A stretch of DNA of 64,000 nt, taken from NCBI GenBank assembly GCA_902573065.1, contig CACGHX010000003.1:1-64000 (forward strand), in the 5' to 3' direction. Below, one piece after another: positions 18,723 to 38,672 of this stretch; the stretch's first letter is position 1; each line of letters begins with the position of its first letter. The translations under genes and the position numbers were made by a program. The notes under the pieces were generated by a model. That model saw only the letters and a list, made by a program, of their open reading frames with translations, made no database searches and was not told where the DNA came from. This DNA comes from an uncultured Pelagibacteraceae bacterium. Lineage in GTDB: Bacteria > Pseudomonadota > Alphaproteobacteria > Pelagibacterales > Pelagibacteraceae.

Positions 18723-19772
18723 CTATAAATCAGATATTACAAACTGTATACCAAGCCATCTCCATTCACCTGTATTTTCTCTTAAGGAACAATTGATCCT
18801 TCCTCTTTCAGTAACAAACTTACCCTCTAAATTTATTTTTATTTCATTATCGGAAATAAAATCAATTTTTGAATTTCTCCATTTATTTTCCTCATTTGAA
18901 TAACAATTAATATTTTTAATATCTGGACCATCCTTAAGAAAAGTAACTTTTACATCTGGTGGATTATTATTTGGACTCAAGTATTTTTCTTCGGGAGATA
19001 TTTTTAAATAAGGCAATGGTAATGTATTTAGAATCGTTTTAAATCTTTTTTCTTCACCATATTTCTCATTTATTGGAAATCTTGGTAACTCAAACTTATT
19101 TTTAGTTTTATCCATTACCCCCGAATGCTGACCAAAACCAAAATCAAATCCCAATTTTTTTACAATTTCAATATATGATTTTTTATATTCCCCGAAAGGA
19201 TACGCAAAAAATTTTGTTTCGTGATTAAGTTTGTCTTTAAAAATTTTGATTGATTTTTTTAGATCTTCTTCTATCTCAACATCACTTTTATCCACTAAAT
19301 AACCATGTGTATGGCTGTGATTACCTATGTGAACAAAATCAAATTTTGAAATTTCTTTAATTTCAGACCAATTCATGTATCCACTTGATCCAATGGTTTC
19401 AGTATTTATAAATATAATAAATGGTATTTCCTCACTTTTTAATATCGGCCAAGCATTTTCATAAAATGAGGAGAAACCATCGTCGATAGTAAGAAGAATT
19501 TTTTTTTCATTATTATTAGACTTAATCGCAGTTAAAAAATCTGTATGTGAAATAAAATTGAAATTACTATTTTTTATAATATCTAAATGTTTTTTGAATT
19601 CTTCGATTTTAATATTTGTAGATGGATACTTATTTTCTTCAAAACGGTGATACATTATTGAGATAATCCCATAGTCTTTTATACTCTTTGCATTAGAATA
19701 TGAATTGTTAAAATCGATAAATAAAATTATAAATAAATAAATGATTAAAAATTTTTTAATAATAAACTGCAC
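18723..19772 (-). CDS. Polysaccharide deacetylase family protein
   Basis: ISIMYHRFEENKYPSTNI, ILLTIDDGFSSFYENAWPIL, IGNHSHTHGYL, FAYPFGEY. The ORF opens at a TTG at 19805; a GTG at 19772 gives a better signal peptide. Confidence 0.85.
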   Translation of the reverse strand: MQFIIKKFLIIYLFIILFIDFNNSYSNAKSIKDYGIISIMYHRFEENKYPSTNIKIEEFKKHLDIIKNSNFNFISHTDFLTAIKSNNNEKKILLTIDDGFSSFYENAWPILKSEEIPFIIFINTETIGSSGYMNWSEIKEISKFDFVHIGNHSHTHGYLVDKSDVEIEEDLKKSIKIFKDKLNHETKFFAYPFGEYKKSYIEIVKKLGFDFGFGQHSGVMDKTKNKFELPRFPINEKYGEEKRFKTILNTLPLPYLKISPEEKYLSPNNNPPDVKVTFLKDGPDIKNINCYSNEENKWRNSKIDFISDNEIKINLEGKFVTERGRINCSLRENTGEWRWLGIQFVISDL

Positions 19773-20124
19773 AGGTAAAAATAATATTATAGCTTTAAGA
19801 GTCAATAATAATTTTTTTTTAAAAAAACTTCAAACAAATATAAGAAACAACGAGACACTTGTGAACAAAATTTTTGTTTTTGTAAGAGAAAAAAAAGCTA
19901 ATATTGACAAAAACTTTTCTGTTATTGTGAATATTGGGCCAGGCAGTTTTTCTGGAATTAGAATTTCTCTAGCTGTGGCTAAAGGGATCAAAATAGCAAA
20001 AGGATCGAAATTATATGGTTATAAAGACCATGATTTAGGTGAATTTAACCCTAAAAATATTGAAATATTAATTAAAAACAAATTAATAGAAAATAATTTG
20101 ATTAAACCTGTCTACATAAGTTAA
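19741..20124 (+). CDS. tsaB: TsaB-like tRNA threonylcarbamoyladenosine protein, short form (127 aa)
   Basis: N-lobe with IGPGSFSGIRISLAVAKGIKIA (TsaB GPGSFTGIRIG motif); ends IKPVYIS like the usual TsaB tail. Confidence 0.78.
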   Translation: MIKNFLIINCTGKNNIIALRVNNNFFLKKLQTNIRNNETLVNKIFVFVREKKANIDKNFSVIVNIGPGSFSGIRISLAVAKGIKIAKGSKLYGYKDHDLGEFNPKNIEILIKNKLIENNLIKPVYIS

Positions 20125-20135
20125 ATTATAAATTT

Positions 20136-20564
20136 ATGAGTAAAATAGAAGATAAATGTAAAGACAAAGGTGTAAGATTAACAGATCAGAGACGTATCAT
20201 AGCAAGAGTTATGTCTGACTCAAAAGCAACCTATGGATCGAAAGACCATCCTGATGTTGATGAACTTCACAAAAGAGTAAATGAGATAGATAAAAACATA
20301 AGTATCGCTACTGTTTACAGAACAGTAAAACTTTTTGAGGAAGCAGGTATAATTGAAAGACATGATTTTAAAGAGGGAAAATCAAGATACGAACCTCTAA
20401 CAGAAGAACATCATGATCATTTAATTGATATTAAAACTGGTGAAATTTTAGAGTTCGTAGATAAAGATATTGAAGAACTTCAAAAAAAAGTAGCTGAAAA
20501 ATTAGGTTATAAACTTGTTGATCATAAGTTAGAATTATACGCACAAAAAATTAAAAAAAACTAA
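20136..20564 (+). CDS. Fur/Mur-family metalloregulator
   Basis: GVRLTDQRRIIARVM, ISIATVYRTVKLFEEAGIIERHDF, EEHHDHLIDIKTGEILEF. Confidence 0.92.
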   Translation: MSKIEDKCKDKGVRLTDQRRIIARVMSDSKATYGSKDHPDVDELHKRVNEIDKNISIATVYRTVKLFEEAGIIERHDFKEGKSRYEPLTEEHHDHLIDIKTGEILEFVDKDIEELQKKVAEKLGYKLVDHKLELYAQKIKKN

Positions 20565-35667: not shown

Positions 35668-35738
35668 TTTGAAAGCTAACAATTGCTTGAGTTTTTATCA
35701 ATATCATATATAAAATTGAAAAATTATACAGTAAGTTA

Positions 35739-36161
35739 ATGCATAAAATGAACAGCAAAAACAAGACTTTTATAGACAAACTCAGATCTTCAGGTCTCAG
35801 ACCTACAAATCAAAGAGTGGAAATAAGCAAATTTCTTTTCAATAGAAAAAAAACATTTCATTTCACAGTTGAAGAATTAAAAAATTCTATGAATTTAAAA
35901 AGGTCAAAAAAAATTTCTACTGCTACTTTTTATAACACAGTGCATGCACTAAAAAGCGCAGGGTATCTAAAGGAATTCTCTTTGGAAAATAATACCTCGT
36001 ATTATGATACTAATATTAAATCTCATCATCACTTTTTTGACAATGGGAAAGTGATTGATATTAAGAGCGACAAAATTACCTTTCATAAACTTCCAGATGC
36101 GCCAAAAGGCAAGAAAATCAAAAACGTTGAAGTTGTAATAAGATTAGAAAATAATAATTAA
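35739..36161 (+). CDS. irr: Irr-type Fur-family transcriptional regulator
   Basis: GLRPTNQRVEISKFLF, ISTATFYNTVHALKSAGYLKE, KSHHHFFDNGKVIDI; no C-terminal CxxC; divergent to fabA-fabB-fabI. Confidence 0.86.
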   Translation: MHKMNSKNKTFIDKLRSSGLRPTNQRVEISKFLFNRKKTFHFTVEELKNSMNLKRSKKISTATFYNTVHALKSAGYLKEFSLENNTSYYDTNIKSHHHFFDNGKVIDIKSDKITFHKLPDAPKGKKIKNVEVVIRLENNN

Positions 36162-36184: not shown

Positions 36185-36225
36185 TTGACACATACTTTAG
36201 AATAATTATAAACTAGTTATAATTA
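36185..36225 (+). promoter_or_regulatory. katG promoter with Irr-box-like element and inverted repeat
   Basis: TTGACA (36185-36190), 16 nt, TATAAA (36207-36212); TTTAGAA-TAA-TTATAAA (36196-36212); TAATTATAA-ACTAG-TTATAATTA (36203-36225). Confidence 0.65.
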
Positions 36226-36226
36226 A

Positions 36227-38416
<2,190 letters not shown>

Positions 38417-38417
38417 A

Positions 38418-38672
38418 ATGACAGAATTAACATCAGGTATATTTAATGCTTCAAAAAAAGTCTACACTTCAAATAAAGGGTCTATATTAAGAACGATTGT
38501 TTACACAATTGGTCATTTCGCAATTGCAATCACTGTTTTAATGTTGGTTGCAGATGTATCTTTCTACATAGCATTAACAGATGCAATTGTTGAGCCACTT
38601 GCAAATTCTGTATGGTATTTTATTTTGGATAAGTTTTGGACTGCAAAAGTAATGAAAAAATCTAAAAACTAA
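38418..38672 (+). CDS. Small DUF2061-type membrane protein
   Basis: ILRTIVYTIGHFAIAITVLMLVADVSFYIALTDAIVEPLANSVWYFILDKFW; starts 1 nt after katG. Confidence 0.72.
   Translation: MTELTSGIFNASKKVYTSNKGSILRTIVYTIGHFAIAITVLMLVADVSFYIALTDAIVEPLANSVWYFILDKFWTAKVMKKSKN

Follow-up and report, generated by a model that had tools for sequence, protein, structure and literature searches.

The catalase-peroxidase gene katG of an uncultured Pelagibacteraceae (SAR11) bacterium very probably answers to the Irr-type regulator encoded immediately upstream, through a predicted operator of that regulator which would occlude the katG promoter, so that loss of Irr would open katG. This reading is drawn from the DNA sequence and its comparison across relatives. 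In the window (the whole 64,000-nucleotide stretch analysed here), fabI-fabB-fabA on the minus strand are followed on the plus strand by irr (35739..36161), katG (36239..38416) and a gene for a small DUF2061 membrane protein (38418..38672). In the mechanism that we infer, an Irr dimer bound at 36193-36215 would act as a repressor rather than an activator: it would mask the katG promoter from the spacer through the -10 hexamer, denying RNA polymerase access to katG and to the DUF2061 gene behind it. Upon inactivation of Irr, presumably by haem, by peroxide or by both as for other Irr proteins, the promoter would open and catalase-peroxidase would be made. The comparative data support the proposal of the first-pass annotation that an Irr box lies in the katG promoter beside irr.

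The element consists of the core motif TTTAGAATAATTATAAA at 36196-36212 on the plus strand, within a predicted palindromic operator resembling the iron control element (ICE, or Irr box), TACTTTAGAATAATTATAAACTA, that spans 36193..36215. The core departs at a single arm position from TTTAGAANNNTTCTAAA, which we take to be the ICE consensus; the ICE-like motif reported in the first-pass annotation is present. Its placement between the two promoter hexamers has to be corrected, since the right arm coincides with the -10 hexamer TATAAA (36207..36212, plus strand), so that the element overlaps both the spacer and the -10. The -35 hexamer, TTGACA (36185..36190, plus strand), was assigned from the sequence and from congener geometry. 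A spacer of 16 bp separates it from TATAAA, and the arrangement TTGACN-16 bp-TATAAA recurs in 58/58 congener loci having the match. In the right arm of the window, TTATAAA, an A replaces the C of the canonical ICE arm TTCTAAA. This A is kept in Pelagibacteraceae, with C in the sister family, and as it creates the second base of TATAAA, the C-to-A change has merged the operator with the -10. An alternative promoter, TTTAGA-16-TATAAT, was dropped because other genera do not keep it, whereas TTGAC-TATAAA is kept. A compensatory symmetric change in the outer arms (C..G versus G..C) was also considered; all four combinations occur, and it was accordingly not counted as evidence.

Because the DNA is AT-rich, a bare match of this kind is weak evidence. 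When up to three mismatches are allowed, the window holds no more ICE matches than its background predicts (38 versus 41.9 expected). With one mismatch there are 2 in the 64 kb, where a dinucleotide model predicts 0.42, and such a match arose in 0.04% of shuffled copies of the 77-bp irr-katG gap. Genome-wide scoring by pattern searches covered the organism's own assembly (770 kb, 74% complete), which contains seven one-mismatch ICE sites, the six others all inside ORFs, and no perfect ICE. The window has a one-mismatch ICE at 19027, inside an ORF, and a second Fur-family gene at 20112-20450. When the assembly is searched with the refined 23-mer TASTTTAGAATNATTATAAASTA, only the katG site matches in full; the sole further hit has three mismatches and falls inside an ORF. 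A search for a wider regulon found no second credible operator in these 770 kb. The first-pass annotation had asked whether the motif merely occurs at background frequency genome-wide: this holds for the loose 17-mer, whereas matches to the refined element single out sites that are linked to irr or look like part of a regulon. By itself, the bare motif is only suggestive; it is the comparative data that make a convincing case for a predicted Irr box.

Of 45 irr-katG gaps read from relatives, 44 contain the element (a few of these gap rows repeat one genome), including those of genera whose Irr is 55-60% identical and in which the rest of the gap is nearly unalignable. Column entropies over the element are biased, as the rows were chosen by pattern; the fair version is an alignment of 12 non-redundant gaps made without such guidance, in which the conserved columns fall on the element. 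Conservation upstream of katG in relatives, which the first-pass annotation had proposed as a check, thus holds. The consensus across relatives is ASTTTAGAAYNATTATAAAST, and the TATAAA arm faces the gene in most loci. The single exception, L063, retains the irr-katG arrangement with a degraded element. At the orthologous place after irr, the sister family within this order has a perfect ICE, AGTTTAGAATNATTCTAAAST, presumably the ancestral form, followed by rubrerythrin. A close match, ATTAGAATGATTCTAAT, also occurs in L172, from a class member farther removed, where it immediately precedes TTGACA in the interval from irr to rubrerythrin.

Across 149 relatives, 94 exact sites were found, and 68 of them are no more than 150 bp from irr, in a zone that makes up about 0.07% of a genome. 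Within Pelagibacteraceae, the exact element occurs in 41 of the 47 irr-containing genomes but in 4 of the 43 irr-less ones (Fisher p=2.6e-14, kinship not corrected). In three of these four irr-less genomes the site falls inside or at the end of an unrelated ORF, and the fourth is G035. The promoters of katG tell the same story: they lack the element in 17 of 18 irr-less genomes, the exception again being G035, and irr-less genomes with katG include G034, G038, G050 and G066, all complete or nearly complete single contigs. Conversely, where katG is unlinked from irr in relatives that have irr, the element precedes it in 4/4 cases with 0-1 mismatch (three sister-family genomes, with katG on a separate contig, and one more distant member of the class), which removes the idea that the element is a mere part of the katG promoter. 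Judged by its distribution, the site follows the regulator. In G035 (L286, C5:68400-70400), a katG of a second lineage stands behind an apparent irr promoter with an exact element; no irr was found in this 83% complete assembly, and the arrangement is either what the loss of irr left behind or the product of an assembly gap. In G029, G007 and G003, irr-less genomes of the same genus, the second katG lineage is located elsewhere with no element before it, indicating that katG and its control have been exchanged within one genus.

The irr product, a protein of 140 aa, has IrrA as its best NCBIfam match (136.8 bits, E=4e-40) and also matches Pfam FUR (E=1.6e-19). Among Fur-family models the Irr models score best, with 136.8 bits for IrrA and 122.2 for Irr, followed by 67.4 for PerRB and 29.5 for Fur. 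The upstream gene is accordingly Irr-type, as annotated at first pass; since its score does not reach the 150 bits of the curated IrrA cut-off, we name it Irr-type and not certified IrrA. A sister-family orthologue in the same position reaches 160.8 bits and passes this cut-off. The window protein contains no cysteine, and hence no four-cysteine structural zinc site of the PerR kind. The Cys-Pro haem regulatory motif of the Bradyrhizobium japonicum type is absent from all 84 Irr proteins compared, and an HHH motif is present in Irr. Residues H41, D90, H96, H98 and D107 of the window protein are invariant in 84/84 Irr proteins and align with the PerR regulatory ligands His37, Asp85, His91, His93 and Asp104 (PMC3953959).

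The presumed target, katG, encodes a catalase-peroxidase of 725 aa that clears both curated cut-offs (NCBIfam PRK15061 and TIGR00198), and its closest named relatives belong to uncultured Pelagibacteraceae (89-97% identity). The DUF2061 gene (84 aa, Pfam PF09834) starts 2 bp after katG, and the two are probably co-transcribed. The distance from the end of the katG match to the DUF2061 gene is 5 nt in most congeners and about 630 nt in another genus. In a sister-family genome (L226), a DUF2061 homologue comes after an ICE-preceded small gene, with no katG there; together with the closeness to katG in the genus, this suggests that the DUF2061 gene is in the same regulon. An in-frame TAA was reported near the end of the katG match of genome G030 (L241).

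The fabA-irr intergenic region of the window (35683..35738) holds no operator, the best match in this gap having 3-4 mismatches in all same-genus loci. In other genera of Pelagibacteraceae, 37 of 53 loci have a match there with 0-1 mismatch. Many other genera carry a second copy of the element in front of irr, best read as putative self-regulation, and the genus of the window has lost this copy. The slot after irr holds rubrerythrin, the katG lineage of the window, a second katG lineage (approximately 54-58% identical to the first) or a 61-aa protein that matches neither Pfam nor NCBIfam; in genome G053, irr is followed by element-like sites and then by rbr. Sites beyond irr's own mostly precede peroxide scavengers. 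A 1-Cys peroxiredoxin promoter carries the element in one sister-family clade and a few members of Pelagibacteraceae, a weaker case because half of the site coincides with a TATAAT hexamer. The peroxiredoxin element (L235:1535-1615, L228) is divergent from a gene for an MBL-fold hydrolase or a sulfide:quinone reductase-like protein. In another genome, a gene for a 67-aa protein has a perfect ICE before it and DUF2061 after it, and adjoins fabA. The small proteins encoded at L226:1237-1440 and L185:1638-1823 (61-67 aa) look alike by eye, and each stands directly behind a perfect ICE; neither has a Pfam or NCBIfam match, and they possibly form an uncharacterised family related to iron or peroxide.

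Several other explanations of the element were weighed against its reading as an Irr operator. That it is a chance resemblance in an AT-rich promoter is extremely improbable: loose matches are indeed at background and half of the motif is the -10 hexamer, but chance would not account for the deep conservation, the co-occurrence with irr and the absence from irr-less katG promoters. Since Fur-family boxes look alike, the element could in principle be the operator of the second Fur-family protein of the window (around 20112-20450), whose closest models are Fur and whose gene is the only other one of the family found in genome G000. This protein is retained in complete genomes that have neither irr nor the element (such as G038, G050 and G066), which makes it an unlikely binder, and the element adjoins irr and not this second gene; we consider its involvement very unlikely. 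It is also improbable, if slightly less so, that Irr bound here activates katG. The title of a B. japonicum paper describes ICE in positive as well as negative control, and other SAR11 genomes have an element immediately 5' of the -35; the site in the window, covering the -35/-10 spacer and the -10, has the geometry of a repressor site.

Assuming that the element is the operator of Irr, two accounts of the signal come into question. In species studied earlier, iron depletion makes Irr act as a repressor, and haem brings about its inactivation (PMC3413700). By this classical logic, which the first-pass annotation proposed, Irr would repress katG when haem is scarce and haem would release it when iron is plentiful, which suits KatG as a haem enzyme, rubrerythrin as an iron enzyme and the HHH motif of Irr. 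The missing Cys-Pro motif speaks against this account, although haem binds R. sphaeroides Irr despite the lack of such a motif (PMC3413700). Furthermore, the rbr transcript of P. ubique (SAR11_0399) rose 1.57-fold in iron limitation on microarrays (PMC2864753), a misfit with simple repression in low iron if the rbr promoter is controlled likewise. The iron-limitation logic for katG is in this respect partly contradicted, and we regard the classical account as possible but doubtful. Alternatively, the same operator and the same Irr would serve a PerR-like sensor, in which a metal-loaded dimer represses the scavengers and peroxide inactivates it, with iron and haem secondary; to this we give a chance just short of even. 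Its targets in relatives would be irr, rubrerythrin, two katG lineages and 1-Cys peroxiredoxin, and since peroxiredoxin needs no iron, iron sparing fails to explain it as a target. The invariant PerR ligands, the rise of P. ubique rbr in iron limitation and the core TTAGAATAATTATAA, one base off the per box TTATAATNATTATAA, point in the same direction. Against it, the window protein is nearest to Irr and not to PerR (136.8 versus 67.4 bits), the peroxiredoxin sites half-coincide with TATAAT and come mostly from one clade, and other Irr proteins retain the His cluster acting with haem (PMC4700492). Oxidants promote Irr degradation elsewhere (PMC3413700), and, in favour of peroxide, B. japonicum Irr forms in its His cluster a non-haem iron site that activates peroxide (PMC4700492). 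In view of the rbr rise and the sites preceding scavengers, derepression triggered by peroxide or haem is at least as likely as repression in low iron.

By position, sequence and co-occurrence, the predicted element and its regulator belong with the Irr/ICE system of Bradyrhizobium, Rhizobium, Brucella and Rhodobacter. Both have an Irr-type regulator, a site overlapping a promoter, a palindrome that in the window is one base from the consensus and in the sister family perfect, and rubrerythrin-like and peroxidase targets, as with mbfA and ccpA of R. sphaeroides (PMC3413700). Unlike that system, the right arm in the window is merged with the -10, the target is a catalase-peroxidase, and only one credible site was found in this incomplete genome, where that system has a broad iron regulon. 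With PerR and the per box of Firmicutes and Leptospira, it shares the Fur-family fold, the five conserved regulatory ligands, a core one base from the per box, katG/katA and peroxidase-type targets and, in other genera, putative self-regulation. It differs in that the window protein scores far higher as Irr and has no structural-zinc cysteines, and in that the sister-family sites are perfect ICEs, two bases from the per box. Like OxyR-controlled katG, which in many bacteria has its regulator gene nearby, the window katG has a regulator encoded next to it; in contrast, no LysR-type gene stands beside it, and the element is a Fur-family palindrome.

In the open-licence literature, no SAR11 paper linking Irr with katG was found. 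R. sphaeroides Irr does not bind the katE promoter (PMC3413700), so a direct link between Irr and catalase is not transferable from that species, and a direct Irr-catalase operator would extend the known picture. Relative to that literature, the new features are the merging of an ICE with the katG -10, a regulon that may be a single operon and an exchangeable scavenger slot. The joint presence and absence of site and regulator across relatives suggests that Irr is mainly a peroxide-defence switch in this reduced genome. More tentatively, and at somewhat less than even chances, SAR11 Irr may have become a dedicated PerR-like peroxide switch with a -10-fused operator and one exchangeable slot downstream of irr, filled by different lineages with rubrerythrin, one of the two katG lineages or a small uncharacterised protein, its operator kept or re-evolved.

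SAR11 bacteria are among the most abundant ocean heterotrophs. P. ubique, the first cultured representative, was reported without catalase and suspected to benefit from the peroxide removal of others (PMC3033426), yet many SAR11 lineages carry katG. The finding names a probable control of SAR11 katG and would link the removal of peroxide in surface seawater to a regulator known from other bacteria as a sensor of haem and iron, with lineage-variable rewiring of which scavenger sits behind irr. It also provides a clean comparative example of an operator vanishing together with its regulator.
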